Assembly: GCA_027021085.1 (NCBI GenBank)
Contig: JALUVB010000020.1
Location: 1-16,327, forward strand
Source of the DNA: a bacterium
GTDB taxonomy: Bacteria; CAIJMQ01; JAADFP01
Reading direction: 5' to 3'
DNA: 16,327 nucleotides
Shown here: positions 1-16,184 of the stretch, piece by piece
How the letters are laid out: every line of letters begins with the position of its first letter
Numbering within the stretch: position 1 is the first letter of the stretch
Made by a program: the position numbers and the translations under genes
The notes under the pieces: generated by a model
Told to the model about the DNA's origin: nothing
The model's database searches: none
What the model saw: the letters and a program-made list of their open reading frames with translations, nothing else

Positions 1-92
1 CTGCCTTCTTTCCTGTCAAAGCTTTAGTATGCTCCTGCCTGGATATACGGGAAGGGTTGTGAGTTGTGAGTTATTAGTTGCCAGTTCCCTGT

Positions 93-108: not shown

Positions 109-275
109 GCGCCTATTCCCCCATGTTAGACTATAGACATCAGACTTTAGACATTAGACGGGAAAGACACATGATATGGGGGGCCAACTTACTATTTACT
201 ATCTTTCCTCATTACTTGTTACCATTCACTATTTTTCCGGTCTATAGTCTAAGAGTTGTGAGTTGCGAGTTATCC

Positions 276-306
276 CCGATGTCCATCGGTCCCGACGTAT
301 GTCGGG
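276..306. repeat. Paired hairpins, R1 module b
   Basis: Two adjacent palindromes: CCGATG-TC-CATCGG (276-289) and CCCGAC-GTAT-GTCGGG (291-306). Compared with the CCCGGC / GCCGGG stem of the other copies, one G-C pair has become A-T with both partners changed, so the stem is preserved. Confidence 0.75.
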
Positions 307-512
307 GCGCCTATTACCCGCCTTTTTAAAACCCCAAAATCTAAGGCAGTCTTGAGGAAACCATGAGACTTGCTCCCGGGAAACCAGGAAACCGAGATAC
401 CAGGATTACCAAGATACTAACCTACCATTCACTGTTTACTATTTACTGCTTACTATCTCCCGGTCTACAGTCTAAGGTCTATGGTCTAAAGTCTAAAACT
501 ACCCGCTACTCG

Positions 513-3500
513 CTACTTGTTATGCAATCTCTGGATTCTTCGCTCTGCCAGGTAGTAGAGGGTGGGAATAAGTATCAGGGTTACCAGGGTAGAAAGGGAA
601 AGGCCTCCTATGGCTGCCAGTCCCAGGGAATTCCATTCTTCCGAACCTTCTCCCCGCATTAAAGCCAGGGGCAGAAGTCCGAATATCGTGGTTAAGCTGG
701 TCATGAGCACAGGCCTTACTCTTCGCAGACCTGCTTTCAGGACAGCCTCCTTAAGCTCCGTTCCGCCTCTCAACAGTCTATTGGTGTAATCAACCAGGAT
801 TATGCCATTGTTAACCACTATACCTATAAGAATCACCGTTCCCAGGAGAGAGTCTACATTAAAAGTCTGCCCGGTGAGAAACAGCATCCAGAGCACGCCG
901 GTAAGGGCAAATGGCACTGAGAACATTATTATTAAGGGATGCAGGAAAGATTCAAACTGGGAGGCCATAACCATGTAAACCAGTATCATCCCCAGGATAA
1001 GGGAGAAGAAAAGGGTGCGAAAGGCCTTTGACTGTTCTTCCACGGCTCCGGATATCTTTACCGTAACCCCCGGGGGAGGGGTAAAATTATGCAGCTGAAC
1101 TTTCAGGTCAGCAAGGACATCGCTCAGCTTTCTTTTGAATAGATATCCTCCCACTTTTATTACTCTTTCCCGCGATTCTCTTTCAATGCTGGAAGGGCCG
1201 GAACGTATTTCTATGCGGGCTAAGTTTTTCAAGGGAACGGTCTTACCGCTGAGAAGATGTATGGGTGATTCCATTAAATCTTTCAAGCTTTTCCTGTCTT
1301 CTTCCCGCATGCGAATGAGTATATCGTATTCGTCTCCTCCTTCACGGAATTTGGTCGATTTTTTGCCATGGAACAGGTTTCTTATCTGGGTGGCTATGCT
1401 GGCAGTGCTACTTCCTGAAAAAGCAGCCTTTTCTTTGTCCACCACTATCCATATTTCCGGTTTGCCTTTTTTACGGGATACATCTACGTCAGTAACTCCC
1501 CCGATACTTTTCAGCATCTGCTTCACCTTTTCTGCTGCCAGGTAGGTTTTTTCCAGGTTATAACCGAATATTTTCACGGTAACTGGCTTCTCTCCTCCCA
1601 GGATAAGCGTTTCCAGGGGGTCTGCTGTCTCAAAGGTCATTTCCTCTATGCCGGGAACCTGTGAGAACTTTTTTCGCAATGCATTTGCCACTTCCTGGCT
1701 GGAACGCTTCCTCTCCTTCTTGGGAACAAGGTCCAGGATTAGCATGCCAATATTGGAACCTTCCTCCCAGCCCATAGCACTGTGGAAACCCTCGTCGGAT
1801 TGCCCCATACGCGCGAACATGTTTTCTCTTTCCGGGACTTCCCGGGCAGCGATTTTTTCGATTTCCTGCATCACTTTCTCTGTCTCCTCCACTCTCGTTC
1901 CTACCGGCAGCCTTACAAAGGCCTGAACCCAGCCCTGGTCTACACGGGGAAAAAACTCTTTTTTAATAAAGGGGAAGAGGGTAAAGCTTGCCAGGAGAAA
2001 GAAGAAGATAACCGTGAGTGTCCTGCCAGGAAAAGAGAGAGATAGATTGAGTATTCTCTCATACCTATTCTCCATCCTTTTTACCCACGGCCTGCGGGAG
2101 GGAACCCGGGGAAGTATGCGGGAGGCCAGCATGGGAGAAAGCGTAAGGGCCACTAAAAGAGAGCCTACCAGGACCACGATGATCACCCAGGCCATCTGGC
2201 GAAACATTATGCCCACTATCCCCCTGGAAAAGATAAGGGGAATAAAGATAGCTATGGTAGTGAAATATGAAGCCATCACCGCCATTCCCACCTCCCCTGC
2301 CCCTGCTTCTGCTGCTTCTTTCACTTCCCCTCCGCTCTCCCTTTTTCGGTAAATGCTTTCCAGCACCACTATTGCCCCATCTACCACCATGCCCAGCGCA
2401 ATCACCAGGCTGGAGAGCGAAATCCAGTTGAGAGTGTAATTATTAAGATAGAGGAATATAAAGGAAAAGATCAGGGAAAAGGGAAGCGTGATAAGAATGA
2501 TGAAACTTCCCCGCACATTACCCAGGAAAAGAATCACGATTATGGAGACCAGGATACTACCCCAGAAAAGGGTAGTGGCAAGGTTGCGAAGGGAGGCTAT
2601 AATAAACTGCGCAGTATCCCTCATTACACCGATTTTAACCTCGGGAGGTAAATCCTTGCTGATTTCTCTTAGCTTGGCACGCACTTTCTGGCTTACTGCC
2701 ACGGTATTAGCCCCGGATTGTTTCTGGACTATTACCACCAGACCTTTCTTTCCTTCTACATGGATTCTGCGGGACTGTTCCTTGTAGGCATCTTCCACCC
2801 GGGCAATATCTTTTAAATATACCGGGTTACCGTTCCTTATGCTCACTACGATATTGTTGATATCTTTTACTTTCTTAAATTCACCCGGTATCCTGATAAT
2901 GTAGTCATTAAGCCCGGTTTTCAGATTGCCGGCTGGCAGGGTAACATTTTCCCTTTGCAGGGAATCAGCCACATCTTCGACAGTGAGATTATAAGCTGTT
3001 AATTTATCTTTATCTACCCAGACCTTGATTTCCCTTTTCAATCCACCCTGAATCCATACGGTTCCTACCCCGGGGACCCTTTCCAGAGGTTCAACCACTT
3101 TTTTATCCACCAGCTTGTAAAGCCGGGAATAGTTTTCCTCTGCCCGGGCGGTAACCATGAGTATGGGCATCTCGGAAATATCAAATTTGAAGACAACGGG
3201 CTCTTCCGCACCATCGGGTAATTCCTTTCTGACAAAGTCAAGCTTATCCCTTATATCATTTGCCGCATCACCCAGGTTAGTACCCCAGGCAAATTTCAAT
3301 CGTACTACGGAGAGCGACTCCTGAGAAAGGGAACTGACCTTTTCTATGTTTGGCACAGTACTGACAGCATTTTCTATGATTTTGCTTACCCTCTCTTCCA
3401 CATCTTCCGGAGAAGCACCCGGATAAGTAGTGATTACAGATATGGAGGGCAGGGTTATTTCAGGCATCATGTCCAGGGGAAGATGAAAGTAAGAGACCAC

Positions 3501-3575
3501 CCCTATGAGAAAAATACCCAGAAAGAGCATCAGGGTGCTTACCGGTCTTCTTACTCCAAACCGCGGCAGGTTCAT
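513..3575 (-). CDS. RND-family efflux pump, inner-membrane permease (AcrB/HAE1-like)
   Basis: A 1020-residue proton-driven exporter, full length for the hydrophobe/amphiphile efflux class. It should trimerise in the inner membrane and work with the adaptor and TolC-like protein encoded upstream. The first membrane helix is residues 11-30, followed by the large periplasmic loop with YPGASPEDVE (51-60). The second half repeats the pattern, with membrane helices around 855-1005. In TM4, GMVVDGAIVV keeps one acidic relay residue (D399, equivalent to AcrB D407), but the second is glycine (G400). In TM10, VVNNG has Asn922 where AcrB has Lys940. The start is the ATG at 3575 because RND homology begins with MNLPRFGVRRPV. 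An in-frame ATG 33 codons upstream would add a Gly/Arg-rich stretch that is only the adaptor gene read in another frame. The start overlaps the adaptor stop by 1 nt (TAATG). The TAG stop is the first three bases of repeat R1. The substrate is unknown. Confidence 0.95.
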   Translation of the reverse strand: MNLPRFGVRRPVSTLMLFLGIFLIGVVSYFHLPLDMMPEITLPSISVITTYPGASPEDVEERVSKIIENAVSTVPNIEKVSSLSQESLSVVRLKFAWGTNLGDAANDIRDKLDFVRKELPDGAEEPVVFKFDISEMPILMVTARAEENYSRLYKLVDKKVVEPLERVPGVGTVWIQGGLKREIKVWVDKDKLTAYNLTVEDVADSLQRENVTLPAGNLKTGLNDYIIRIPGEFKKVKDINNIVVSIRNGNPVYLKDIARVEDAYKEQSRRIHVEGKKGLVVIVQKQSGANTVAVSQKVRAKLREISKDLPPEVKIGVMRDTAQFIIASLRNLATTLFWGSILVSIIVILFLGNVRGSFIILITLPFSLIFSFIFLYLNNYTLNWISLSSLVIALGMVVDGAIVVLESIYRKRESGGEVKEAAEAGAGEVGMAVMASYFTTIAIFIPLIFSRGIVGIMFRQMAWVIIVVLVGSLLVALTLSPMLASRILPRVPSRRPWVKRMENRYERILNLSLSFPGRTLTVIFFFLLASFTLFPFIKKEFFPRVDQGWVQAFVRLPVGTRVEETEKVMQEIEKIAAREVPERENMFARMGQSDEGFHSAMGWEEGSNIGMLILDLVPKKERKRSSQEVANALRKKFSQVPGIEEMTFETADPLETLILGGEKPVTVKIFGYNLEKTYLAAEKVKQMLKSIGGVTDVDVSRKKGKPEIWIVVDKEKAAFSGSSTASIATQIRNLFHGKKSTKFREGGDEYDILIRMREEDRKSLKDLMESPIHLLSGKTVPLKNLARIEIRSGPSSIERESRERVIKVGGYLFKRKLSDVLADLKVQLHNFTPPPGVTVKISGAVEEQSKAFRTLFFSLILGMILVYMVMASQFESFLHPLIIMFSVPFALTGVLWMLFLTGQTFNVDSLLGTVILIGIVVNNGIILVDYTNRLLRGGTELKEAVLKAGLRRVRPVLMTSLTTIFGLLPLALMRGEGSEEWNSLGLAAIGGLSLSTLVTLILIPTLYYLAERRIQRLHNK

Positions 3576-4675
3576 TATTCTACTACCTTTACTCTCATGC
3601 CATCCTTGAGAAATTTTTGTCCCCTGATGACCACCTCTTCCCCTGCCGCTACCCCGGCAAGCACCTCTACCCAATTCCCCTCCCGTATCCCCTGTACGAT
3701 ATTGCGAAGAGACGCTCTCCCTTCTTTAACCACAAATACGTTATTCCCCTTTACAACTGCTTCTCTTCTTATTTTTAAGGCATTATCATGTTCCTGGATT
3801 ATCACCTTTATGCGGGCGAACATGCCGGGTTTAAGGTAATGTTCAGGATTGGGCACTTTTATCTCTACCAAAGCAGTGCGGGAAAGGGGGTCAAAAGTAG
3901 GTGCAATCCTGGACACACTGCCCTGAAAAACTTTCCCGGGATAGGCATCCACATTGACTTCAACCCTTTCTCCTATTCTCAACCTGGTTATATCCTTCTC
4001 GTTCACACTGAGCGTGCCCTTGACTGTATCCATATCTACTATGGTAACCAGGGGAGTTCCCCTGAGCTGGATAGTGGCAGTAACCATATCACCTTCTTCT
4101 ACAAACTTCCGGGCAATAACACCCGCAATAGGAGCCGTAACAGTGGAATCAGCAAGCTGGATTTTAGCCAAGGAAAGAGCAACCTTCAGCTCTTCCACCT
4201 TGGCCCGGGCACTCTTGTAGGCAGTGCTTACATTATCCATTTTCTGCTGTGAGACTGCCTTTTTCCGGAAAAGATTCTTTACCCGTTCATACTCCTTCTT
4301 AAGGTTGGAAAGATTTACTTCCGCTGATTCCAGGGAAGCCTTCAGCCTCTTTTCCTGCAGGAGAAGCTTATCCTTCTCAATCTTAGCAATGAGAGCACCT
4401 TTTCCCACTCTATCGCCCACATCCACGGCAAGCTCTTTTACTTTACCCCCTACCTTGGAATACACGGTAACTGTGGCCTCAGGTATGATATTACCGGAAA
4501 AGGACAAAGTATCCATAATGCTCCCGGTGCTCACCTTTTCCACCCTTACCGGAATTTCTCTTTCTCTGGCTATCTTTTCTCCTCCCTTTCTCCCTGCTTC
4601 AATAATCCGGTAGACCCTGTATGCTCCCCCTCCTACAAGCACCAGAGCCACTATCCAGATAATTATCTTTTTCAT
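3575..4675 (-). CDS. RND efflux periplasmic adaptor (membrane fusion protein, AcrA/HlyD family)
   Basis: A 366-residue adaptor linking the RND permease to the outer-membrane channel. Residues 4-18 form one hydrophobic N-terminal segment with no lipobox cysteine, so it is probably anchored by this helix rather than by lipid. The first half of the split lipoyl-like domain is around 70-100 (VDVGDRVGKGALIAKIE). A long helical hairpin runs about 103-175 (rich in Leu, Lys, Glu). The second lipoyl half is around 176-197 (TVTAPIAGVIARKFVEEGD). A beta-barrel domain follows at about 200-290 (LKPGMFARIKV) and then a membrane-proximal domain to the end. This domain order is standard for the family. The ATG overlaps the TolC-like stop by 4 nt (ATGA), which indicates coupled translation. 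Confidence 0.95.
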   Translation of the reverse strand: MKKIIIWIVALVLVGGGAYRVYRIIEAGRKGGEKIAREREIPVRVEKVSTGSIMDTLSFSGNIIPEATVTVYSKVGGKVKELAVDVGDRVGKGALIAKIEKDKLLLQEKRLKASLESAEVNLSNLKKEYERVKNLFRKKAVSQQKMDNVSTAYKSARAKVEELKVALSLAKIQLADSTVTAPIAGVIARKFVEEGDMVTATIQLRGTPLVTIVDMDTVKGTLSVNEKDITRLRIGERVEVNVDAYPGKVFQGSVSRIAPTFDPLSRTALVEIKVPNPEHYLKPGMFARIKVIIQEHDNALKIRREAVVKGNNVFVVKEGRASLRNIVQGIREGNWVEVLAGVAAGEEVVIRGQKFLKDGMRVKVVE

Positions 4676-6009
4676 CTTTTTTCTCCTTTTTGGCTTGTAG
4701 CGCTGCCCCCTACCGCCCTTTCAAGGCCTGCTTTCGCTATCTGGTAACCGTATAAGGCACGATAGTAATCCATTTCTGCTCTGGTTAAAAGAGTCCGGGC
4801 ATCCAGGACATCTGTATTCGTGGCCATTCCTTCCTTGAACCTGGCGGAAGTATCCTTAAAATTCTTTTCTGCTTCTTTTACTGCTTCTTTCTGTACTTTT
4901 ATCCTCTCCTTCGCGGATAAAAGATTCAGGTATGCCTGGCGCACTTCCAGCTCCACCTGGTTTTTCAGCAAAGAAAAAGAGCTTTTTATCTGCTTCATCT
5001 GCGACTTTGCCTTTTCAAGTTCGTTCTTGTTCTCCCCCCAGTCCCATATGTCTATGCTCACTGAGATTACCGCGCTCCAGGATTCTTTCCATTTATCTAT
5101 GGGAATTTCTGCCCCTTTTTTCTTATCCCAGCTTCCTGTCAGCGCAACCTGGGGGAAAAAGCTTGCACGGGCTATTCTTACCTTTTCCTCCGCCATTCTC
5201 AATCTGTTTTGCATCTCCTTTATCTCGGGTCTATTTTTGTAAGCTTCCTTTATATAACCAGAAAGGTCACCCGTATCATTTTCAAATCCCGGCACATCCT
5301 TCAGTCTCACCTCTTTTCCCAGATCCCGGTTTAAAAGGTTATTAAAGTAGGCGCGGGAAAATTTGAGCCTATTTTCAACATTTATAAGTTGACGGTTAGC
5401 ATTTGCCAGCGCCACCTTTGCCCGCAAAACTTCCACTTCTGCCACCATTCCCTCGGCAAATAAATCTTTTAGCAATTTTAGGTGTGCCCCTGTCTGATTT
5501 AATGCTTCCTGTGCCACTTTTCTTAATCTTTCCGCCTCCAGGACTTTAAAGTAGGCTTCCTTGACCGCAAAGATTAAATCATTCTTCACCTTTTCAAAAT
5601 TATGCCGGTTTGCCGCAAGATTTTCTTTCTGCAGGTTGTAAAGAGAGATAAGTTTCCCTCCCGTGAAAAGCGGCTGGGAAAGGCTGAGGTTATAATCGTA
5701 GATTTCGTCATCGGAGAGCACAGGTGTTGGCATGGGGGGGTATCCCGGGATAGTAGGCAAGTTAATATCCATGGTTTTCTTTTTATCCAGGCGGGTGTAA
5801 GAAGACAGGGTGTAAATCCTGGGAAGGAAATTGCTGCGCGCTTTTTCTCTCTCGGTTTGCGCTTCTCTTATCTTCTCCCTGGCTATATCTATGGAGGGAT
5901 TATTTTCCAGGGCTATGGAGATACTTTCTTGTAAACTCAGAAGGTTATCCCCCGCAAACGCAAGCTGGGCCAGAAAAAGTAGAAAGGGAATTAGTAAAAA
6001 TTTCTTCAT
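4672..6009 (-). CDS. TolC-family outer-membrane efflux protein
   Basis: 445 residues. A clear signal peptide (MKKFLLIPFLLFLAQLAFA) has a likely cleavage site after Ala19. The mature part has two repeats of about 200 residues, each with long amphipathic helices (for example around 120-200 and 325-400) and short beta-strand segments, as in the outer-membrane efflux protein family that forms trimeric barrel-and-tunnel channels. Typical features are NPSIDIAREKI near the N-terminus and LFAEGMVAEVEVLRA / RFKEGMATNTDVLDA at equivalent places in the two halves, which shows the internal duplication. It overlaps marR and the adaptor gene by 4 nt each (ATGA). It should form the exit duct for the RND pump. 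The presence of this gene is the main reason to infer an outer membrane. Confidence 0.95.
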   Translation of the reverse strand: MKKFLLIPFLLFLAQLAFAGDNLLSLQESISIALENNPSIDIAREKIREAQTEREKARSNFLPRIYTLSSYTRLDKKKTMDINLPTIPGYPPMPTPVLSDDEIYDYNLSLSQPLFTGGKLISLYNLQKENLAANRHNFEKVKNDLIFAVKEAYFKVLEAERLRKVAQEALNQTGAHLKLLKDLFAEGMVAEVEVLRAKVALANANRQLINVENRLKFSRAYFNNLLNRDLGKEVRLKDVPGFENDTGDLSGYIKEAYKNRPEIKEMQNRLRMAEEKVRIARASFFPQVALTGSWDKKKGAEIPIDKWKESWSAVISVSIDIWDWGENKNELEKAKSQMKQIKSSFSLLKNQVELEVRQAYLNLLSAKERIKVQKEAVKEAEKNFKDTSARFKEGMATNTDVLDARTLLTRAEMDYYRALYGYQIAKAGLERAVGGSATSQKGEKR

Positions 6010-6437
6010 AAAAGCTGCTCCATTTTCCCTATCAACTCCAGAAGTTTTTTTCTTTCCTTAGAAGTAAACTTCTCTAAAGAATTTTCTAAAAGCTTACAGA
6101 ACTGGCTCCTGATGCGCAGGACAGTTTTTCTGCCTTTCGCGGTGAGAGAAGTAATAATAACTCTTCTATCCGCAGGGGAAAACTCGCGTTTTAAAAAACC
6201 CATCTTTACCAGGTTATCCACCAGGCTGGTTACTGCAGAAGCGCTTACTCTCAGGTATCGGGCAAGCTCCACCATCATTGCTTTTTCTCTTTCTACTAAA
6301 TAGGAAAGTATATGGAACTGGGGAAGGGTGATCTTACCGGAGGATAATTCATTGGAAAGCTTCGCCCTCATTTTTCTCTGCATGCTTAGAAAAATTCTAT
6401 CCAATTTATCTATGTCTTCTTTTAATTGTTCATCCAT
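6006..6437 (-). CDS. MarR-family transcriptional regulator
   Basis: 143 residues from the preferred ATG. A longer GTG-start version (6446) is less likely: its GTG abuts the GAGGG ribosome site, whereas the ATG at 6437 lies 8 nt beyond it (6446-6450). The winged helix-turn-helix spans roughly residues 35-100: LTLPQFHILSYL-type entry helix, MVELARYLRVSASAVTSLVDNL recognition region (about 55-76), and the wing with the family-typical DRR motif (D90-R92, SPADRRV). The long N- and C-terminal helices would form the dimer interface. As first gene of the efflux operon it probably represses its own promoter and responds to a ligand exported by the pump. This is inferred from position and family, not shown. 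A 13-bp palindrome just below the -10 box is a candidate operator. Confidence 0.92.
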   Translation of the reverse strand: MDEQLKEDIDKLDRIFLSMQRKMRAKLSNELSSGKITLPQFHILSYLVEREKAMMVELARYLRVSASAVTSLVDNLVKMGFLKREFSPADRRVIITSLTAKGRKTVLRIRSQFCKLLENSLEKFTSKERKKLLELIGKMEQLL

Positions 6438-6445
6438 ATACTTCA

Positions 6446-6450
6446 CCCTC
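6446..6450 (-). promoter_or_regulatory. Ribosome binding site that decides the marR start
   Basis: GAGGG on the minus strand lies 8 nt before the ATG at 6437 but directly against the alternative GTG at 6446. This favours the shorter protein. Confidence 0.6.
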
Positions 6451-6508: not shown

Positions 6509-6869
6509 GTTGTTAGTAGTGAGGGGAAGATAGTAAACAGTGAACAGTAAATAGTAAGCAGTAAGCAGTGAGTGGTGAATGGTGAGAAAGTAGTGAGGGG
6601 AAGGATAGTGAATGGTGACGAGTAACGAGGAAAGATAGTAAATAGTGAGTTGGCCCCCCGTATCATGTGTCTTTCCCGTCTAATGTCTAAAGTCTGATGT
6701 CTATAGTCTAACATGGGGGCATAGGTGCCCCGGCATGCGCCGGGACAGATGTTCATCGGGGACAACTCATAACTCACAACTCTCCCAGTATACAGGCGGG
6801 GACATAGGCGGAACTAACAACTCATCCCGATGAACATCGGGAGCAACTCACAACTCTCATACTATAGAC
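6509..6869 (+). repeat. Heptad-mosaic repeat element, copy R2
   Basis: Fills the space between the marR promoter and the 3' end of the DUF2062 gene; no gene is credible here. The order on the plus strand is AGTAAAC/AGTGAAC-like heptads (about 6520-6656), a C-run, GTCTAAT-type heptads (6678-6711), a hairpin (6729-6744), a CATC/GATG palindrome and AACTCAC heptads. A second CCCGATG-AA-CATCGGG palindrome (about 6826-6841) and one TATAGAC unit follow at the gene junction. By hand alignment, 6568-6773 matches 15933-16138 of R3 without gaps, with about 12 mismatches in 206 bases. Unlike R1 and R3, it lacks the upstream TTTAGAC block. Confidence 0.85.
6729..6744. repeat. GC-rich hairpin of R2
   Basis: CCCGGC-ATGC-GCCGGG, a perfect 6-bp stem with a 4-nt loop. 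The upstream GGGGC / GCCCC pairing (around 6716-6731) would compete with it, so two alternative folds are possible. Confidence 0.7.
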
Positions 6870-7320
6870 GGTTTATGGGTTTGGGTTTTTTAATAAATTT
6901 CAAGATAAGAAGTGAGAGGAGAAACGAGATAATTCCCAGGGCAATTCCCAAGGTAAACCCTCCCAGGAACAGGGAGAAGAGCACATCCTTTATTACTTTG
7001 TAATGGAAATCTTTGAAGCTTTGCAGGGTAAGGGTAAGGGATTTCCCCATGATTTTACTTCCTACCCAGTGGTCAAGGAAATAAACAAAAGGGACCAGGG
7101 GAGGGAGAGAGATTATACTGCTGGTGGAAAAGACGGATACTACGTTTACTTTTTTAAATATGCCCGCAATTAACAGTGTAACGGGTGTTTTAATTCCCTG
7201 GATGGGCAAAATACCTATAAAAAAACCAATACCTATCCCGGAAGCTATTTCCAGAGGGCTCCTGCGGGTGACGGCTTCGTGTTTCAGCTTTTTCAGGATT
7301 GCCTTGAGCCTGGCTTTCAT
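6862..7320 (-). CDS. DUF2062-domain membrane protein
   Basis: A 152-residue integral membrane protein resembling DUF2062, a family of unknown function. A basic N-terminus (residues 1-20) precedes three hydrophobic regions: about 25-54 (SGIGIGFFIGILPIQG, typical of the family), 58-87 and 112-141. A Lys-rich tail faces the cytoplasm by the positive-inside rule. It lies 82 nt downstream of the isomerase gene on the same strand with no clear terminator between, so it may be the last gene of the sugar operon or be independently expressed. I see no convincing promoter in the gap. The last two residues and TAG stop (CGT CTA TAG) fall in a TATAGAC unit of repeat R2, so the original C-terminus may have been altered. 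Confidence 0.85.
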   Translation of the reverse strand: MKARLKAILKKLKHEAVTRRSPLEIASGIGIGFFIGILPIQGIKTPVTLLIAGIFKKVNVVSVFSTSSIISLPPLVPFVYFLDHWVGSKIMGKSLTLTLQSFKDFHYKVIKDVLFSLFLGGFTLGIALGIISFLLSLLILKFIKKPKPINRL

Positions 7321-7402: not shown

Positions 7403-9121
7403 CTATACCTTTTTTGCCAGGGAAAGTTTACTGGCCACTTCTCCCCCGTTTATCAGGTAGAGCAAAGGAAGCGGCCTATCCACTCCCTCTATGTACTGGG
7501 GCCTCTTACTCCAGGGAGTAACAGAGAGAACGTTTGCCATGTCCATCCAGTACTCTAAACGCGCCGGCGGGAGATTCCAGGTCATGTGAAAGTGATTAGC
7601 CGGGGCATACTGCTTGTATTCGCCCATGCTGGCATACCGGGGAACTACAAAGGTGTGGGGCCAGGTATAGGTGGAGGTTTTACATACTGCTTCGGCAAGT
7701 TTATCCGGCAGGTCAACTGTTTCTGCTTCATCCCAGATGAGAGAGAATATGTTATTTATACTGCTGTAGGCGAGCCTTCCTGCTATTCCTTCTATTCCAC
7801 CCGGGGAGATGAAGGTGACAGAGTTGCCCAGGCCGGGGAAGTACCCTTCGTCAGCCAGAGGAAAAGATACCCTGGACATGATTTCTTCTACAGAATCACC
7901 CGGTTTACCTGCCCAATCAAAGGAAGCACTTCCCGAATTATCTCCATCTACAAATCCTCTCTTCTCCCATATGCTATCCCCGGAAAGTTTCACCCCTATC
8001 TTCTGAGCCAGCTCCTTAATTTCCCACGGTTCCCATACTTTCCTGAAATCCATGAAGAGGGGAGGATTGCCTCCGGTAAGGTAGGTGAAAAAGAGCATGG
8101 TTAGAAGTCCCTGCACGTCTGCCTCGGTGGCATAGGGAATAGGTGACTTCCTGCCCCTATGGTCAAAGGTAGAGTTGAAGAGAGATTCCATTATATCGGC
8201 TACGGGAAGAGGGATGCCTTTAGGGTCTGACCCCCATTCCAGCTGGCTCATAAATCCTCCCCCTACTGCGTTCAGGTCTTCCATTATGTCCCTCACAATG
8301 AGGTACATGGCTAATGATTTTTGCAGCCTTTCTTCATCATCTTCGTTTCTCAATTCGATTCTTTCCCCCACCAACCTGCCCAGCCAATCCCTCAATTCTT
8401 TCAACTCTTTTTCATTGTAGGCTTTCTTCTGGAGCATGTCCGCAAGTAATTTCATATCCAGGCGGGTAATCTCTATCCCGAATATGTTGCGGGTAGGAAT
8501 TACATGGGCAAGAGCAGTTTCCATGCCCATGGAATCGTGCCCGAATATCACCACTCTTCTCCCTTTTAATGCCTGGAAGGTAATAGCTGCATAGCACCAG
8601 TCAACCAGGGTTCTGGCTGTATTTTCCGTCATGCGGGGATTCATGCCCGTATCAGGCCAGGTCCCTACATTGATATGAATAAGCTTTCCGTATTGAGATA
8701 CAGCACCGCTCGCAGCATGGGTGTAAACTACTCCGGGTTTGGGGCCGCTATTGCCGCAGGTGAGGTTGAGGGGAGTGTCCTTGGGAAACTGCTGGATGAA
8801 AGAGATAAGGCTGGGTTGGGGAAATGCCCAGGTATCCGGCACTCCTACCAGTATGTTGACTCCCGCCTCTTCAAACTGCCTGGCCACTACATCCGCCTGC
8901 TTTTCTCCGTCAATAAGTAGTGTGCTGTAGACTACCCTGACCGGAGTGCCATCTGCCAGTTTTACTCTTTCCGCTATTATATCCGCTGCCATCTGGATAA
9001 TGTTTGCCACACGCTTGCGAGAAGGCTCATCTATGCGGGGGTCGCAAGGAGAAAAAACTCCTATTACAGGATTTTTAACTTTCGCAACCTCTCCCGCTCC
9101 CAATTTTATTGCTCTGCCCAT
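7403..9121 (-). CDS. L-fucose isomerase-family sugar isomerase
   Basis: A 572-residue aldose-ketose isomerase of the FucI family (E. coli FucI is about 590 residues). The family converts L-fucose to L-fuculose, and also D-arabinose to D-ribulose, using a divalent metal, usually manganese. The metal/catalytic residues can be placed by motif: Glu333 in ATEAD, Asp358 in FMDFR and His510 in PANHF match the E. coli ATEND, FADVR and ANHG motifs. NSTFD (316-320) and the Trp/Pro-rich TYTWPHTFVVPR (484-495) are also family-like. The N-terminal half is more divergent, so the substrate could be L-fucose, L-rhamnose or another sugar. The start at ATG 9121 has a strong AGGAGGAG site upstream. It follows the kinase gene by 11 nt in the same operon. 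Confidence 0.88.
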   Translation of the reverse strand: MGRAIKLGAGEVAKVKNPVIGVFSPCDPRIDEPSRKRVANIIQMAADIIAERVKLADGTPVRVVYSTLLIDGEKQADVVARQFEEAGVNILVGVPDTWAFPQPSLISFIQQFPKDTPLNLTCGNSGPKPGVVYTHAASGAVSQYGKLIHINVGTWPDTGMNPRMTENTARTLVDWCYAAITFQALKGRRVVIFGHDSMGMETALAHVIPTRNIFGIEITRLDMKLLADMLQKKAYNEKELKELRDWLGRLVGERIELRNEDDEERLQKSLAMYLIVRDIMEDLNAVGGGFMSQLEWGSDPKGIPLPVADIMESLFNSTFDHRGRKSPIPYATEADVQGLLTMLFFTYLTGGNPPLFMDFRKVWEPWEIKELAQKIGVKLSGDSIWEKRGFVDGDNSGSASFDWAGKPGDSVEEIMSRVSFPLADEGYFPGLGNSVTFISPGGIEGIAGRLAYSSINNIFSLIWDEAETVDLPDKLAEAVCKTSTYTWPHTFVVPRYASMGEYKQYAPANHFHMTWNLPPARLEYWMDMANVLSVTPWSKRPQYIEGVDRPLPLLYLINGGEVASKLSLAKKV

Positions 9122-9132
9122 TTTTTCTCCTC

Positions 9133-10563
9133 CTATTCCTTTAAAAGTTTTCTCAACAGGTCATATTTCTCTGCGAAGATATTCTCACCGGGCTGATAAA
9201 CCTTTAATGCAAACGAATTTCTTATAATTTCTCTTCCCTCTTCTATACTGGAAATTTCTCCCAGGGAAAGCATCTGGATAATACTGCTTCCTATGGTGGT
9301 GGCTTCGTAGGGACCGGCATAGACCATCTTTCCTGTAACGTCAGCGACAAGCTGATTCAGGAATTCGTTCTTTGCTCCTCCACCCACAATATGAACACGA
9401 GGATAATTTTTGCCGGTTAGATTCTCAATTTTTTCTATCACCCACCTGTATTTCAACGCAAGACTTTCAAATAGTATCCTTACTATTTCCAGTATGCTCT
9501 CTGGCGGTTTTTGTCCTGTTTCTTTCAGGTAGCTTACTATTTTTTCCGGCATACTGCCCGGCGTCTGGAACCTTGCCTCGTCCACGTCTATAATTGCGGA
9601 TGATTTTACCTGGTTTACCTTGAGGAGTTCCTGCAAACTTTTGTTCCATTTTCTCCTGCATTCCTCAAAAATCCACATGCCAGTCAGGTTCTTGAGAAAG
9701 GTTATCTTCCCTACTCCTCCTTCGTTGGTAAAGTTATTTTGCAGGGTCTCGGAATTTATCAGTGGCTGGTCAATTTCAATCCCCACCAATGACCAGGTCC
9801 CAGAACTTATATAAACAGAGTCCTCTGTCATGGGAGTGCCCACTATCGCCGAGGCAGTGTCATGGGAGCCTGTGGCTACTACCCGGGTATTTTGCAGGAT
9901 ATTCAGTGATTTTCTTACACTGCCGATGACTTTTCCCGGCCTGGTAACGGGCAGGAGGAAATGGGTAGGAATGGAAAGCGATTGCAGCAGCTCTTTTGCC
10001 CATTCATCTTTAGCCACTCTGTACATCTGGGTGGTAGTAGCGTTGGTATACTCGCATATTTTCTCACCGGAAAGAAAGTAGGTGAAAAGGTCAGGAATCA
10101 TAAGCAAGGCAGAAGAATTATCCAGAATATAGGGGAAATTTTTCCGGAGGGTATATACCTGGTAAAGGGTGTTTATAGGCATTATCTGGATGCCTGTCTC
10201 CAGGAAGATTTTCTCTCTGCCTAATTCGTTTATCACCTCTTCCGCCTTTTTTATGTGCTCAATGTCCCGGTAATGAGAGGGCAATTTTATTAACCTGCCT
10301 TCTCTATCCAGCAGGGCAAAATCCACTCCCCATCCGTCCACAGCAACGGAGGATGCTTCCTTAACCCGGGAAAGGATACCTTGTATCTCTTTCCAGAAAC
10401 GGGGAACATCCCAGACAAGTTTAAATCCGTTATCAAAGGGTAAGTTCGTTCCTTCCGTGGGGAATCTCCCCAGTTCTTGCAGGGAAAGCTTCTTATCTTT
10501 AAATTCCACCTCCATTATTCTCCCGCTGGTAGCACCCAGGTCTAAGCAAATATATTTACCCAT
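9133..10563 (-). CDS. rhaB: Rhamnulokinase-type FGGY carbohydrate kinase
   Basis: A 476-residue FGGY kinase that should phosphorylate the 1-hydroxyl of a ketose (L-rhamnulose or L-fuculose) with ATP. It follows the RhaB pattern closely: the phosphate loop LDLGATSGRI (7-16), WDVPRFW (51-57), DGWGVDF (76-82), HYRD (97-100), NTLYQ (131-135), EYTNATTTQ (171-179), the catalytic-base motif GSHDTASA with Asp235, SSGTWSL (253-259), NEGG (280-283) and the adenine-binding VGGGAKN (393-399). The length is normal. The ATG at 10563 is 1 nt after the aldolase stop, with GGAG inside the aldolase end. Paired with a FucI-type rather than RhaA-type isomerase, its real substrate (rhamnulose or fuculose) stays open; the rhaB symbol denotes family. 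Confidence 0.9.
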   Translation of the reverse strand: MGKYICLDLGATSGRIMEVEFKDKKLSLQELGRFPTEGTNLPFDNGFKLVWDVPRFWKEIQGILSRVKEASSVAVDGWGVDFALLDREGRLIKLPSHYRDIEHIKKAEEVINELGREKIFLETGIQIMPINTLYQVYTLRKNFPYILDNSSALLMIPDLFTYFLSGEKICEYTNATTTQMYRVAKDEWAKELLQSLSIPTHFLLPVTRPGKVIGSVRKSLNILQNTRVVATGSHDTASAIVGTPMTEDSVYISSGTWSLVGIEIDQPLINSETLQNNFTNEGGVGKITFLKNLTGMWIFEECRRKWNKSLQELLKVNQVKSSAIIDVDEARFQTPGSMPEKIVSYLKETGQKPPESILEIVRILFESLALKYRWVIEKIENLTGKNYPRVHIVGGGAKNEFLNQLVADVTGKMVYAGPYEATTIGSSIIQMLSLGEISSIEEGREIIRNSFALKVYQPGENIFAEKYDLLRKLLKE

Positions 10564-10564
10564 C

Positions 10565-12490
10565 TTATCTCATCTCCTGTCCCTGGCTTACATTGTAAGC
10601 CTGCCCGGTTTCTCCTCTCTGCTTAAGTATGTAAAAAATCGTGTGCATAACATCCTCAATTGTAGAAGCTCTCTTGAGAAGGGTAAGATTTTTATAGTAA
10701 TTCTCCACGTCTTTTCTTGTTTTTGCCCCGGGAACCTTGCCCGCTTTAAGGTACTGGTCAAGTAAACCTCCTTCCCGCTGCCATAGCTCCAGGTCCAGGA
10801 AGTTGCCGGGACAGATGGCATTTACGAAAATATTATGCGCGGCCAGGTCCATGGCTATGCTCTGGGTAAAACCAATGCCGGCAAACTTGGATGAGGCATA
10901 GGCAGAGTTCGCCTTGCTCCCCTTTTTGCCGGACTTGGAGTTAATCTGGATTATATCTCCGTATCCCTGCTCCACCATAACCCGGGCTGCCTTTTGCGCA
11001 CAGAGAAAATAACCGTAGAAGTTAACTTCTATTACTTTTCTGAATTTATCGTAGGGGAAACTTAAAATATTGTCCGCAATAAGGATGCCTGCATTGCTTA
11101 TGAGAATATCTATGCCTCCGAACCTTTTCACCGTAAAGGCCACCATATCCTGCACATCATCTTCCCGGGTAACATCCACCTGGCAGGGAACTGCTCTCCC
11201 TTCGCCAAAACTTTCTTCAAATTTCCTGGCTACCTTTTCAGCCATCTCATAATTTATATCAGCTATGACCACGTGTGCGCCTTCTTTGAGCAGTCCTTCT
11301 GCGATTCCCCTGCCCACTCCCTGCGCACCTCCTGTGACTATGGCTATCCTGCCTGCTATCTCTCCCCTCTTCCCCTCTGCTATCCGCCTTCTGTACCTCT
11401 CCACTTCCCAGTTATCAATAAATTTTACATATTTGCTGGGCAGGAATTTTGGCCCCCCAAAAGAGAAAGATGCCCGGTAAATTTTTATTATATCCCGGAA
11501 AATCAAGGCCGCATTTTTTGCCGTTTTCCAGCTCTCACCTATACCGAATATCCCCACTCCGTTAACAGCTATAATTTTTGCCTCGTATTCTTCCTTTTCC
11601 AGGCAATGCCTGATTTTCGCAATCAGTTTTTCCGGGGTAATATGCTCTCCCTCCATCCAGATTGCTTTCGGACCGCAGTAAACAATCTGGTCGGGAGTGA
11701 AGGCCCCCTTAACAATCTCTTCAGGAATTTCCAAGCATCTCAGGGAAAAGATTATTCTTCTCCTCTTCTCGCCCAGAGCTCTGCGAATCCAGAGAGAAAC
11801 CTCATCTAATTTAATCCTGGGCTCTTCTTTTTTTTCTTCCGGCAAGCTCAGGTGCGAGGCAACCTTATCTACTACCTCCCTTATCCTGTTTTTCACCTCT
11901 TCTGCACTTTCGCCTCCCACAATTACCCCGTGATTTTCCAGGAGAATGACCTGAGGATGTTTTTTGTGAATTTGGGCAAATTTCTTAATCTCACTTTCTA
12001 TTATCCTGGAGAGAGTATATCCGGGTGGACAGAAGTCTATCCAGAGAGTATCTTCCCCCAGAATCTTCCGGTAAACAGATTTCCCCTGCTTACTGCAGGT
12101 GAGAGCATTCACTGCCCAGGGATGGATATGCACTACCCAGGGATAATTTATAAGTTCATGAAAATAGGTTTCTACGGAAGGTATCTGCCCCAGCTCCGGG
12201 GCAATTCTTGCCGCAAGCAAGTCCTTTTTTACCTCTTCCTCCCTTAATTTTGCATCTTCGGAGTACTTTTTACTGCGGATAACTTTTAACTTTTCTCTGC
12301 TTAAAAGAACAAATCCCTCTTCGGTAATATTGCCCAGTTCAGACCCGCTTGCTTTAACCTGGATAATTTGCTCATCCTTGTAAGAAGTATTCCCCCCGCC
12401 TGCCAGTATGAGAGCCGAATCAGCCCCCAGGGAGCGAGAGAGAGCAACTAATTCCTGGGATACAGCCTTTTTTGTCTTTTCATTATTCAT
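10565..12490 (-). CDS. Bifunctional ketose-1-phosphate aldolase / lactaldehyde dehydrogenase (RhaEW type)
   Basis: A 641-residue fusion. Residues 1-340 are a class II aldolase/adducin-type domain: GGGNTS (31-36) for phosphate binding, catalytic Glu107 (SVETYF), and zinc histidines 121 and 123 (VHIHPW) and 187 (ENHG). It should split rhamnulose- or fuculose-1-phosphate into dihydroxyacetone phosphate and L-lactaldehyde. Residues 378-641 are a short-chain dehydrogenase: TGGAQGVG (386-393) nucleotide-binding loop, SNAG (465-468), Ser518 region, and Tyr531 / Lys535 (YASSK). In known RhaEW proteins this half oxidises lactaldehyde to lactate with NAD. The fusion would channel the reactive aldehyde. 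It is the first gene of the isomerase-kinase-aldolase operon, with a good promoter about 75 nt upstream. No frameshift or missing residue is seen. Confidence 0.92.
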   Translation of the reverse strand: MNNEKTKKAVSQELVALSRSLGADSALILAGGGNTSYKDEQIIQVKASGSELGNITEEGFVLLSREKLKVIRSKKYSEDAKLREEEVKKDLLAARIAPELGQIPSVETYFHELINYPWVVHIHPWAVNALTCSKQGKSVYRKILGEDTLWIDFCPPGYTLSRIIESEIKKFAQIHKKHPQVILLENHGVIVGGESAEEVKNRIREVVDKVASHLSLPEEKKEEPRIKLDEVSLWIRRALGEKRRRIIFSLRCLEIPEEIVKGAFTPDQIVYCGPKAIWMEGEHITPEKLIAKIRHCLEKEEYEAKIIAVNGVGIFGIGESWKTAKNAALIFRDIIKIYRASFSFGGPKFLPSKYVKFIDNWEVERYRRRIAEGKRGEIAGRIAIVTGGAQGVGRGIAEGLLKEGAHVVIADINYEMAEKVARKFEESFGEGRAVPCQVDVTREDDVQDMVAFTVKRFGGIDILISNAGILIADNILSFPYDKFRKVIEVNFYGYFLCAQKAARVMVEQGYGDIIQINSKSGKKGSKANSAYASSKFAGIGFTQSIAMDLAAHNIFVNAICPGNFLDLELWQREGGLLDQYLKAGKVPGAKTRKDVENYYKNLTLLKRASTIEDVMHTIFYILKQRGETGQAYNVSQGQEMR

Positions 12491-12562
12491 AATTTACCTG
12501 CCTCAGGAAGCACTCCCCCAGAGTACTGCTGCGAACATAACTCTAACTCTCCGCATGTCTGT

Positions 12563-12591
12563 AGTATAGTTTACCAAAACCTGCAAGTCAA
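12563..12591 (-). promoter_or_regulatory. Sigma70-type promoter of the deoxyhexose operon
   Basis: Minus strand: -35 TTGACT (12586-12591), a 17-nt spacer, and -10 TATACT (12563-12568). Both boxes differ from consensus at one base. Transcription would start near 12556, about 65 nt before the aldolase ATG. Confidence 0.75.
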
Positions 12592-12597
12592 TGCAGG
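12580..12597. promoter_or_regulatory. Perfect dyad over the -35 box (candidate operator)
   Basis: CCTGCA - 6 nt - TGCAGG, perfect 6-bp arms; the 6-nt centre is exactly the -35 hexamer. A protein bound here would block RNA polymerase, as expected for a sugar-responsive repressor. No regulator gene for it is in the window. Confidence 0.55.
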
Positions 12598-12686
12598 GAC
12601 TCAGTTCCGCACCAAGAGCCCCAGCCCAAGCAAAGGCTTTCGCTACAGGGAAAGAGAAGCAGGGCCACTCCCAGCAAGAGAAAGCC

Positions 12687-13832
12687 TCACTTCTCAGCCA
12701 GGAAAGAATTTATTTCAAATTCGCCTATCTCTCTCAGCTCCTCCAGACTCTTCCGGGTCCTTAGGCCTTCCTGGTCAACAAAACCTTCTTCGCCTATTTT
12801 TCTCAGGTACTGGTGAGCAGCCACGATACAGCAGCCCTCCCAGAAAATCTCTGCCAGTTCCTCGTCCATGTACTGGAGACCTTTCGGCAGTGGGGTAAGC
12901 AGGCCTCCTTTCAGGCTGTTATGTTCCGTCCCGCAGGTAACCACAATCCCTTCCCTCCTTAAAACTTTTACGTATTTCTTCAATACTTTATAACTATTTC
13001 GCGGCGGGATAAACTCAGCCATCCAGTATCCCATCTTTTTTAACTCTTTACTCAAAAGGTTAGGGCTTTTTTCCTTGTCAGTGAGAACAGGAGTCCCGTC
13101 GGATAAGACGGGATATACCGGTATGCCGCCCGAGTTAAGAAAGACCTGCCTGGCTTCCCGGGGACTTAAAAAAGCATCGTTGTCTTCCTCCACGTAAGCC
13201 ACTCCTCCAAACTTAAGCAACTTGCCCCTTAACTGCTCAGCTACACTGCCTGCTGTCTCCTCTATTCCCAAAAGCTGACATAATTTTAATTTTTCTTCCT
13301 CGTTCTCTGCAACTCTCGCGTATATTTCCTTGGCAATGTGTCTCTCCCTTACCCAGCCGGAAGGGGTAGAGTCCTTTATATCTTCGTAAGCCAGGGAAAT
13401 CTCCATACCTTTCCGGGAAAGGAAATCATTGACTTTTTCTACCATTTTTTTCATTCTTCTCTGTGAACAATCCTTTATCCGGCTGATAATAGAGAGTGTC
13501 CAATCATTAACTTCCTGTGGATACAAGAGCCCTTTGCCGCAGAGATAGATTCTTCCCGGGTTATTGGGGTCATTCCAGAGGATACCCTTCTTTTTATCTT
13601 CCAGGTTAACTGCAATTACCTCCAGGCCATACACAGGATAAATATTTTTCTCCAAACATTCTTCCGTAAATTCATCGTAGCCCTCTGTGGTATAGAAATC
13701 GTTAATCCCGAGAGCCACTATCCCCTCTTCCGCAGCCTTTTCCACCAGGGAAGAGACAGAGGAGAAGAAAGAAAAGGAATAGGGAGTGTGAACATGTAAA
13801 TTCGTAGAGGGAAATCCATTATTATTTTTCAT
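12687..13832 (-). CDS. PHP-domain metal-dependent hydrolase-like protein
   Basis: 381 residues with a PHP (polymerase and histidinol phosphatase) fold. Candidate metal ligands follow the family order: HVHT (His13, His15), Asp45 in GINDFYTTEG, Glu71 in GLEV, His165 in RERH, and CGTEHN (300-305). The common Asp-His pair of motif two is Asp-Phe here (residue 46). PHP proteins are usually phosphoesterases or phosphatases with two or three metals; the substrate of this one is unknown. An insert of roughly residues 80-215, Lys/Glu-rich, separates the motifs. It starts 8 nt after the URO-D-like gene with only a weak ribosome site, so its translation is probably coupled. Co-occurrence with sugar genes suggests a carbohydrate-related substrate (inference). 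Confidence 0.85.
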   Translation of the reverse strand: MKNNNGFPSTNLHVHTPYSFSFFSSVSSLVEKAAEEGIVALGINDFYTTEGYDEFTEECLEKNIYPVYGLEVIAVNLEDKKKGILWNDPNNPGRIYLCGKGLLYPQEVNDWTLSIISRIKDCSQRRMKKMVEKVNDFLSRKGMEISLAYEDIKDSTPSGWVRERHIAKEIYARVAENEEEKLKLCQLLGIEETAGSVAEQLRGKLLKFGGVAYVEEDNDAFLSPREARQVFLNSGGIPVYPVLSDGTPVLTDKEKSPNLLSKELKKMGYWMAEFIPPRNSYKVLKKYVKVLRREGIVVTCGTEHNSLKGGLLTPLPKGLQYMDEELAEIFWEGCCIVAAHQYLRKIGEEGFVDQEGLRTRKSLEELREIGEFEINSFLAEK

Positions 13833-13840
13833 GATAAATC

Positions 13841-14893
13841 TCAGTTTTTAAAATACTTCTCTATGGTTTCCATAATGGTTAGAAAATTCCCCTGCCATCT
13901 GTCCTCCGGGACATCCTCGGTAATCCCGATTAAAAACCGCGGGTATCCTTCTGCCTGTTCCAGCAGGTCTACCGTGGCCCCGGCTATCTTCTCTTCGCTT
14001 TTCAGGTGCACCGAGGAAGGGAAATTTATCCATAACGCCTTACCTTCCCAAAAAGAAAGCGCTTCTTTCAGGGTCAAATCCGTATCAGGGAACGGGGTAA
14101 AGGCCTCTATAAAATCGAGGGAGGTTTCGGCAATGTCTGCGGCTATCAACCTGCAATTGGCGTCAAAATGCGAGCCAATAAGTTTACCATATTTATGCAA
14201 ATATTCTGCTGCTTCTTCATAATTCGGCACGTAATACTTGCGAAAACCTTCCACCCCTACAATTTCCACTGTTACATTGCCTCCATAGTTAAAGTGAAAA
14301 CAGGGGGATTCGCTTAGCAAGGGATAGCTCCTCCTGCGCGCTTCCACAATAGCCTCATACAGGGCAAGAACTTCATCCCTCCTCTCCATCCACTCAAAGC
14401 AAAAAGTCTCGGTGCCCATCAGCTCAATAATCGCCTGGAAAGGTTCCAGGCCTATACTTCCCCTGAGAATAATATCCTCCCCCCGCAACTTTTCCATTTT
14501 GACAAAGTTCTCATAGTTTACCCGGTACTTATGATTCTGGAAGAAAAAAATGAGTTTTGCATAGTCCTCCGGACCGGCAAAAAGATGCCGCAAAACCCAC
14601 CGGGTATAGCCCCTGTCCTCCTGGAGAGAATAGAAATTGCCTTTTGGTGTTTCGTAGTCCACCCTGATATAACGCTTTCCCTCTTCCCGGTAGCGGGTCT
14701 CTCTCACCTTCACTTCAGGAGTTAACACCTCGAGTACCGGCACACTCCTTCTCACCACACACAACCCCATGTTTCTGAGTTTCCTCTCCACTGTGCAGCG
14801 GGGTAAAAACGTTTCATATACTGTGAAGGGAACCTTATCCACTTTCTCTCCCAGGAGAGCCCTGATTACCCTTTCTTTCGGAGTTAAACACAT
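13841..14893 (-). CDS. URO-D superfamily protein (uroporphyrinogen decarboxylase-like, not HemE)
   Basis: 350 residues with the URO-D / methyl-cobamide methyltransferase barrel: the N-terminal LTPKERVIRALLGEKVDKVP (family signature, residues 3-22), GSHFDANCR (240-248), LDFIEAFTPFPD (259-270), WINFP (288-292) and LIGITEDVP (321-329). True HemE's arginine-rich substrate motif near the N-terminus is absent, and no other haem genes are here. The His-x-Cys zinc motif of MtaA/MtbA methyltransferases is replaced by His242-Phe-Asp244. It therefore belongs to a divergent branch whose reaction I cannot name. The ATG at 14893 has GAGG 11 nt upstream and a TATAAT at 14921-14926. It is first gene of a two-gene unit with the PHP protein. 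Confidence 0.85.
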   Translation of the reverse strand: MCLTPKERVIRALLGEKVDKVPFTVYETFLPRCTVERKLRNMGLCVVRRSVPVLEVLTPEVKVRETRYREEGKRYIRVDYETPKGNFYSLQEDRGYTRWVLRHLFAGPEDYAKLIFFFQNHKYRVNYENFVKMEKLRGEDIILRGSIGLEPFQAIIELMGTETFCFEWMERRDEVLALYEAIVEARRRSYPLLSESPCFHFNYGGNVTVEIVGVEGFRKYYVPNYEEAAEYLHKYGKLIGSHFDANCRLIAADIAETSLDFIEAFTPFPDTDLTLKEALSFWEGKALWINFPSSVHLKSEEKIAGATVDLLEQAEGYPRFLIGITEDVPEDRWQGNFLTIMETIEKYFKN

Positions 14894-15015: not shown

Positions 15016-15022
15016 CATGAAA

Positions 15023-15793
15023 ATGAGCGTAATTGATAAATTTCGTCTGGAAGGAAAAGTTGCCTTTATCACCGGAGGAAGCAAGGGGCTGGGAAAAGCC
15101 ATGGCAGAAGCCATCGCAGAAGCCGGAGCAAATGTGGCTATCTCCAGCCGGCACCCGGAGGAATGTGCCGAAGCAGCCGGAGAAATCCGGGATAGGACAG
15201 GCAAAGAAATCCTTCCCCTGAAAACCGATGTGAAAGTTCCCGTAGAAATAGAAAAAGCTGTAAAAGAGTGCCTGGAGAAATTCGGAAAGATAGATATTCT
15301 CATCACCAGTGCAGGAATAAATAAAAGATATGCGGCAGAAGAATTTCCAGAAGAAGATTTCCGGGAAATAATAGAAGTGAACCTCATGGGAACCTGGAAT
15401 GCCTGTAAAATCGTGGGAAAACACATGCTTCAAAGAAAATACGGAAGAATTCTTACTCTGGGCTCAATGCTGAGCGTAGTTTCAATTCCGCAAAGGAGTG
15501 CATATACCGCCAGTAAGGGAGGAGTGCTGCAACTCACCAGAACCCTGGCACTGGAATGGGCAGAGCATAATATCACAGTCAATTGTATCTGCCCGGGACC
15601 TTTTCATACCGCTATTAACGAACAAATATTTAGGAACCCGGAAATACGAAAATTCTTCCTGGATAATATCCCGCTGGGCAGATTCGGTAAACTGGAAGAA
15701 ATCGGAGCACTGGCAGTATTTCTTGCCAGTGATGCCTGTCCCTATATAACCGGCGCCTCCATATTTATAGATGGCGGATGGACCCTGAAATAA
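15023..15793 (+). CDS. Short-chain dehydrogenase/reductase (classical SDR, gluconate/deoxygluconate dehydrogenase-like)
   Basis: A 256-residue NAD(P)-dependent oxidoreductase of the classical SDR family, normal in length. Rossmann loop TGGSKGLG (17-24); the usual NNAG is TSAG (95-98); catalytic Ser148 region (LGSMLS), Tyr161 and Lys165 (YTASK); PGPFHT (191-196); and the C-terminal ITGASIFIDGGW (242-253), common to sugar-acid and polyol dehydrogenases. Position 41 is Ser in the SSR motif after beta-2, which with Arg43 suggests NADPH may be used, but this is uncertain. It is divergent from the URO-D/PHP unit with 129 bases between starts, probably functionally linked. The substrate is not determinable; gluconate 5-dehydrogenase and KduD-type enzymes are the closest named patterns I recognise. 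Confidence 0.9.
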   Translation: MSVIDKFRLEGKVAFITGGSKGLGKAMAEAIAEAGANVAISSRHPEECAEAAGEIRDRTGKEILPLKTDVKVPVEIEKAVKECLEKFGKIDILITSAGINKRYAAEEFPEEDFREIIEVNLMGTWNACKIVGKHMLQRKYGRILTLGSMLSVVSIPQRSAYTASKGGVLQLTRTLALEWAEHNITVNCICPGPFHTAINEQIFRNPEIRKFFLDNIPLGRFGKLEEIGALAVFLASDACPYITGASIFIDGGWTLK

Positions 15794-15816: not shown

Positions 15817-15861
15817 CCTAATTCAGTAGCGAGTAGTGAGTAGCGGGTAGTGAGGGGGATT

Positions 15862-16076
15862 TTAGACTTTAGACCGTAGACTTTAGACTATAGACTGGGA
15901 GATAGTGAGCAGTAAATAGTAAACAATAAGGAGTGAGTGGTGAATGGTGAGAAAGTAGTGAGGGGAAGGATAGTGAATGGTAACGAGTAACGAGGAAAGA
16001 TAGCAAATAGTGAGTTGGTTCCCCGTATCATGTTTCTTTCCCGTCTAATGTCTAAAGTCTGATGTCTATAGTCTAA
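15862..16076. repeat. Internal inverted arms of R3
   Basis: The left arm 15862-15899 and the right arm 16040-16076 are imperfect inverted repeats of about 37 bases (roughly 31 paired positions by hand). The equivalent arms in R1 are 459-498 and 126-162. In a transcript they could close a long hairpin around the AGTAAAT block. Confidence 0.6.
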
Positions 16077-16093
16077 CATGGGGGCATGGGCGC

Positions 16094-16125
16094 CCCGGCA
16101 TACGCCGGGACCGATGGACATCGGG
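16094..16125. repeat. Paired hairpins of R3
   Basis: CCCGGC-ATAC-GCCGGG (16094-16109) followed by CCGATG-GA-CATCGG (16112-16125). It has the same order as R1 module b. Confidence 0.7.
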
Positions 16126-16184
16126 GACAACTCACAACTAACAACTCCCAACTCTTGGACTATTACCCTGAAAGAGTATCCTGT

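Follow-up and report, generated by a model that had tools for sequence, protein, structure and literature searches.

The window, by which we mean the whole stretch of 16,327 nucleotides analysed here, is one contig (contig 20) of a 1.93-Mb draft genome in 307 contigs, and the source lineage is a small phylum represented by 7 genomes. According to Pfam, the region 512-6446 encodes an AcrB-type RND transporter, a membrane-fusion protein, an outer-membrane efflux protein and a MarR regulator, adjacent to one another and on one strand. The region 7403-14893 is probably a deoxysugar catabolic cluster, with an L-fucose isomerase, a sugar-kinase-like open reading frame (ORF), an aldolase-SDR fusion, a PHP protein and a weakly uroporphyrinogen-decarboxylase-like protein. 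Genes were called with our own codon model, which misses some real genes, such as the DUF2062 gene at 6862-7320.

Composition of the three repeat tracts

Three repeat tracts, R1, R2 and R3, lie beside these genes. They had been described in a first-pass annotation as copies of one repeat family built from 7-bp blocks and palindromes, and all three are present at the positions given there, each with period-7 arrays recognised by Tandem Repeats Finder (marked TRF below). The 206-bp ungapped alignment of R2 and R3 reported in that annotation was found at 94% identity, and an ungapped alignment of 244 bp has 93% identity; R1 is inverted relative to both. The palindromes proved equally real, those at 93-108, 6729-6744 and 16094-16109 being of the CCCGGC...GCCGGG type and those at 6827-6842 and 16112-16125 of the CCGATGNACATCGG type. 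In the following, T arrays are (NDTAGAC)n, A arrays are (YAGTRAR)n and G arrays consist of GAGTTNN units.

20-515, minus strand: R1, an inverted mosaic that starts at the contig end and reaches as far as the AcrB-type RND transporter gene's stop codon
56-80, plus: GAGTTGT-type heptads (G array; TRF)
91-185, minus: 95-bp core cassette, 97% identical to 6652-6746, including the palindrome 93-108 and a T array at 126-159 (TRF)
423-456, minus: A array (YAGTRAR)n, coding strand of the RND gene (TRF)
463-497, minus: T array (NDTAGAC)5, coding strand of the RND gene (TRF)
499-517, minus: TAGCGAG-type heptads, with the stop codon TAG of the RND gene (513-515) inside the block (TRF)
6509-6869, plus: R2, between the start of the MarR gene (6006-6446, minus) and the stop of the DUF2062 gene (6862-7320, minus), the latter gene's own stop lying at the edge of the tract
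6530-6651, plus: A arrays of YAGTRAR and TAGTGAG types (TRF, 6532-6569 and 6568-6586)
6652-6746, plus: 95-bp core cassette, the copy used as reference (about 30 complete or nearly complete copies genome-wide)
6678-6711, minus: T array (NDTAGAC)5 of this core (TRF)
6729-6744, unstranded: palindrome CCCGGCATGCGCCGGG, with one compensatory pair among 12 copies
6762-6782, minus: AACTCAC-type heptads (G array; TRF)
6827-6842, unstranded: palindrome CCCGATGAACATCGGG
15826-16160, plus: R3, the reported tract, 3' of an SDR gene (15017-15793, plus)
15825-15854, plus: TAGCGAG/TAGTGAG heptads (TRF)
15861-15896, plus: T array (NDTAGAC)5, coding strand of the SDR gene, about 65 bp past the gene (TRF)
15897-16016, plus: GGGAGA spacer unit and A arrays
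16017-16111, plus: core cassette (16021-16111 at 96% identity) with inverted T array at 16043-16076 (TRF) and palindrome at 16094-16109
16112-16125, unstranded: palindrome CCGATGGACATCGG
16127-16154, minus: AACTCAC-type heptads (G array; TRF)

Modules and their dispersal

The usual order of blocks is T array, GGGAG spacer unit, A array, TGGTNTCC octads and REP-like palindrome; in places a G array and the octad block TGGTNTCC follow, and the interleaved palindromes are of the kinds ATGCCTGC..GCAGGCAT, CCGGC..GCCGG and CCGATG..CATCGG. T arrays consist of exactly five units in 61 of the 97 cases in the source genome. Each position of TAGAC is conserved at 93-99% in the source genome (sister species, 88-99%), whereas the two leading positions of the unit vary freely, with C almost absent from the second. 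The consensus units NDTAGAC and YAGTRAR contain no GGG and no G-quadruplex motif. In the 95-bp core, a short linker is joined to an inverted T array and then a GC-rich palindrome. An A array follows a T array in the same orientation 39 times in the source genome and 31 times in the sister species, and in the opposite orientation 9 times and not at all, respectively; the spacing in 8 of the 9 opposite cases is 29 bp, as inside the core.

At least two modules recombine freely. The module of T array, A array, octads and palindrome is found alone and in chains, the core is found with differing right flanks, and the sister species has modules without the core. The ordered set of heptad families claimed for the repeat therefore stands in part: there are several families in fixed order and orientation, but this order belongs to separable modules and not to a single unit with fixed boundaries. 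Beside the heptads, degenerate 8-bp blocks of TGGTNTCC and GGGATTTG types are seen in sister-species tracts (e.g. loci L324 and L322).

That the window holds the only three copies is refuted, as the segment 6568-6773 has at least 56 matches in the source genome; with a copy number so far above three, the dispersed element proposed by the first-pass annotation is borne out. The core alone (6652-6746) has at least 47 matches on dozens of contigs, and some 30 places around the genome share full or near-full cassettes with identities of up to 99%. These numbers are lower bounds, scoring having covered 40 of the initial candidates and several copies being located at contig ends. The ends of contigs C20, C161, C239, C246, C255 and C280 carry many copies, which probably means that the assembly is interrupted by the repeat and that the counts are too low, a point of which those working with draft genomes should be aware. 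With respect to the ends expected of a MITE, CCCCC..CATGT and ACATGGGGG, which are imperfect inverted repeats, mark off the left part of the core; for this part, up to ACATGGGGG, the left flank is shared and the right flank is variable, and no target duplication was recognised.

The core cassette is absent from the sister species, where mainly its T-array part is matched; the best match there to the segment 6568-6773 is its T array alone (E 1.5e-7), and this segment has no match in the genome of a third family member. The statements that the tract belongs to no known named element and that no transposase lies within the window agree with our searches: no Rfam family matches the window, which speaks against a named RNA family, and no match was obtained among plasmids, so that a plasmid-borne repeat was also rejected.

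Period-7 excess, array turnover and position at gene ends

For the lag analysis, about 615 kb were taken from the source genome and 527 kb from the sister species. Some of these contigs had been picked for carrying matches, so the densities are inflated, and the comparison of one lag with another is much less affected. Intergenic DNA of the source genome has 110 lag-7 segments, compared with 13-27 at other lags from 4 to 15, lag 14 (120) excepted, and 11 lag-7 segments are found in its coding DNA. The sister species has 121 lag-7 segments as against 7-43 elsewhere, where lag 8 is the highest (43, compared with 7-18 at lags other than 7 and 14) and lag 14 is also high. In both species the period-7 excess is confined to intergenic DNA, with few such segments in coding DNA. 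Three consecutive GTCTAWN units are matched 221 and 121 times in the two genomes, as against 0 for the reversed control. A chance origin of the heptad tracts is excluded.

Near-identical cores differ from one another by whole heptads, with four units at L026 and three at L024 and L029. Neighbouring units within tracts share 56% of their bases, and background similarity is reached at five units apart; this decay, together with the whole-heptad differences, fits local duplication and loss in 7-bp steps. The earlier claim that the tracts did not arise by independent slippage thus holds in that cassettes are shared and did not originate separately at each site, and needs amending in that slippage takes part (L024, L026, L029). 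Among 18 aligned core copies, substitutions per site and copy amount to 0.0156 in TAGAC and 0.0333 at the free positions. Since change in TAGAC is only about twofold lower among these recent copies, its strong conservation either predates the spread of the core or reflects the making of arrays or selection. Such conservation is not predicted by plain slippage and decay, and could be due to selection.

T arrays are oriented with respect to genes. When a gene boundary lies within 80 bp on the 5' side of the array, the array follows a same-strand stop codon in 42 cases and an opposite-strand gene in 5; on the 3' side, boundaries at up to 80 bp number 6. The stop codon clearly precedes the array in many cases. 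At 194 orthologous gene ends, from reciprocal pairs with a median protein identity of 91%, a T array is present in both species at 6, in one at 7 and in neither at 181 (Fisher p=2.4e-7), and the arrays at shared ends differ between the species in their units and neighbours. One pair of loci resembles a filled and an empty site: about 60 bp with a T array come right after the TGA in the sister species (L312), and the source genome continues almost directly (L270), which may represent either an insertion or a deletion. At the end of an orthologous sugar-transferase gene (L283, L324), the stop codon TAG lies inside or beside the first heptads in both species.

Origin of the repeat and its relatives

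On balance, we favour the view that the tracts are an interspersed repeat, non-autonomous and specific to this genome, in which degenerate 7-bp microsatellites have been combined with REP-like palindromes. Arrays would be born and resized by polymerase slippage or short duplication in 7-nt steps, which would explain both the period and the prevalence of heptads in unrelated genomes. Cassettes may subsequently have been copied in trans or via recombination between repeats, and gene 3' ends may be places that tolerate their insertion. Because 7 cannot be divided by 3, consecutive units block every reading frame, and with stop triplets in nearly every T and A heptad the sense orientation would be harmless at gene 3' ends. 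A host function, if there is any, would be secondary. In searches for Y1 transposases and reverse transcriptases, no mobilising enzyme was found linked to the repeat: the sole two Y1-transposase ORFs lie in loci without T arrays, and reverse transcriptase (PF00078) is absent from the draft genomes of the three family members (94%, 86% and 64% complete); this argues against an origin of the telomerase, DGR or retron type.

Alternatively, the module of T array, A array and palindrome might be selected downstream of stop codons as a functional 3'-end element. Such an element might halt translation in all frames, or might provide the antisense strand with a C-rich Rho-type site that keeps antisense transcription from entering the gene. 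The strict sense polarity after stop codons, the occupation of the same gene ends by different sequences in two species and the conserved TAGAC core with free flanking positions are in line with this proposal, as is the presence of a stop triplet in 400 of 426 A units in the source genome, compared with 377 +/- 4.7 expected from shuffled columns. However, the excess in A units of the sister species is weak (163 vs 159 +/- 2.8), and in both species stops are rarer in T units than in their shuffled columns. Selection for all-frame stops was rejected, as a clear excess of stop-containing A units is seen in one species only. Moreover, arrays occupy a minority of gene ends, divergent gaps also carry arrays, the core is almost without covariation, and intrinsic terminators are rare with or without arrays. 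We regard a 3'-end function as rather unlikely.

Two narrower candidates were discarded. Replacement of intrinsic terminators was dropped because these are too rare to use, with 0 among 49 T-array ends and 24 among 298 array-free ends. A structured RNA in the core has a covariation term of -0.12 kcal/mol and compensatory changes in 1 of 26 pairs. The whole R3 tract forms a stem with a z score of -4.7 on the minus strand, which is not independent support, because it comes mainly from the inverted T arrays.

Mobilisation of a REP/BIME-type element by a RAYT (Y1) transposase, with the heptads as passengers between palindromes, seems improbable. Several REP-like palindromes are interleaved with the arrays, and a full-length Y1 ORF of 226 aa shares a 2.6-kb locus with one ATGCCTGC..GCAGGCAT palindrome. 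Against this, neither Y1 gene (L031, L032) is flanked by T arrays, by a matching palindrome pair or by CCGGC or CCGATG palindromes, the second Y1 match is a 105-aa ORF covering part of the profile, and the numbers of the palindrome types differ greatly between the species while arrays persist in both. The repeat resembles REP/BIME elements and their RAYT systems in its short intergenic palindromes and composite repeated arrangements, and differs from them in consisting mostly of heptad arrays and in having no linked RAYT.

A process in which exposed intergenic 3' ends are lengthened outward in 7-nt steps and then rejoined has little probability. It would yield arrays reading away from both flanking genes, often as inverted pairs. 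In the genus studied here, arrays point outward from the nearer gene 59 times and inward 16 times; in two unrelated lineages, TAGAC arrays near an ORF in an Anaerolineae genome do so 23 and 4 times, and those of a Bacteroidales genome 17 and 6 times. The GGGAATC heptads of Xanthomonas and Nostoc obey the same rule at both gene ends (PMC4692102). When uncurated ORFs are used and stops inside arrays are excluded, however, all sets together give 45 vs 30 (p=0.1), and the 5' gene boundaries are uncurated. No reverse transcriptase was found in the family genomes, and a longer template would be required to set different heptad families in a fixed order.

A general rule of outward polarity is suggestive at this stage. 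One might go further and propose a single placement rule for unrelated heptads in unrelated phyla, with arrays starting at a gene boundary and the purine-richer strand reading outward on either strand of the gene. They would then be products of one sequence-independent process at work in intergenic gaps, such as 7-nt extension of exposed 3' ends, and neither lineage-specific nor G-quadruplex elements; we consider this a speculative and rather doubtful generalisation.

The reading that we prefer, an interspersed repeat of microsatellite origin, can be compared with known heptads. The first-pass annotation had drawn a parallel to cyanobacterial STRR heptamers, which are tandem 7-bp units. Known heptad repeats do offer a parallel, and a closer one than was thought lies in the GGGAATC heptads of Xanthomonas and Nostoc, because these share dispersal, a four-unit preference, inverted pairs and stop-codon-abutting polarity. 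The heptads of the cyanobacterial tRNA-Leu intron are likewise degenerate tandem 7-bp units, variable in copy number within the intron, and pair with each other as RNA in one gene; in the repeat described here, by contrast, pairing is limited to inverted T arrays and draws hardly any support from compensatory change.

Among the longer simple repeats, heptamers are the most frequent class in most of the bacterial genomes that have been surveyed, and Mrazek and others are reported to have proposed that they arise by polymerase slippage (PMC4679880, PMC4692102). The GGGAATC / GGGGA(C/T)T repeats of Xanthomonas and Nostoc are dispersed and intergenic with a preference for four units, occur as inverted pairs in Xanthomonas, lie with their coding strand 0-50 bp after stop codons or overlapping them, and keep the same gene neighbours in related species while varying strongly in sequence (PMC4692102). 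Our arrays are similar in their 7-bp units, small preferred unit number, intergenic dispersal, inverted pairs, polarity next to stop codons and retention of position despite turnover. Unlike that single G-rich family, which has been discussed in terms of G-quadruplexes, they comprise several families without G-tract repeats, arranged in fixed order, joined to palindromes and including a 95-bp cassette that multiplies. In Beggiatoaceae, TAACTGA direct repeats form intergenic sets of 2-6 units that are oriented to genes, and some sets are split by related but different heptamers (PMC4679880). Those repeats are directed toward start codons and are mostly one exact heptamer, whereas ours follow stop codons and are degenerate. 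In the open-access papers searched, we found no description of several heptad families in fixed order with palindromes, or of a cassette that carries heptads and multiplies within a single species.

The preference of bacterial simple repeats for 7 bp and the closeness of heptads to gene ends call for an explanation. The published case of heptad placement was examined through G-quadruplexes, and this genus, with its comparable gene ends in two species, allows placement to be tested without them: since heptads lacking G-tracts are placed in the same way, a general explanation cannot lie in G-quadruplexes.

Heptad arrays recur in unrelated bacteria, and their cores differ. Four-unit GTCTAWN arrays turned up in a genome-wide pattern scan in Bacteroidales, Omnitrophota, Chloroflexi and other groups, and other heptad families were often next to them. 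In random samples, the TAGAC type was present in only 5 of 198 Bacteroidota genomes and 2 of 151 from Chloroflexota. The reversed control had 192 matches in one other genome, which probably lie in few arrays. A TAGAC family shared across phyla was rejected on this basis; the apparent sharing of the core is largely a matter of ascertainment.

In Bacteroidales, Nitrospinota and Anaerolineae, there are intergenic gaps with inverted TAGAC arrays at their borders (L125, L123, L380, L381, L387), and the paired inverted arrays at L123 and L125 are not mirror copies of each other. At the Anaerolineae loci L396 and L381, heptad families merge in the same phase, e.g. from GAGAATA to GACTTTA, and (YAACCRR)n has transition-type degeneracy, like YAGTRAR.
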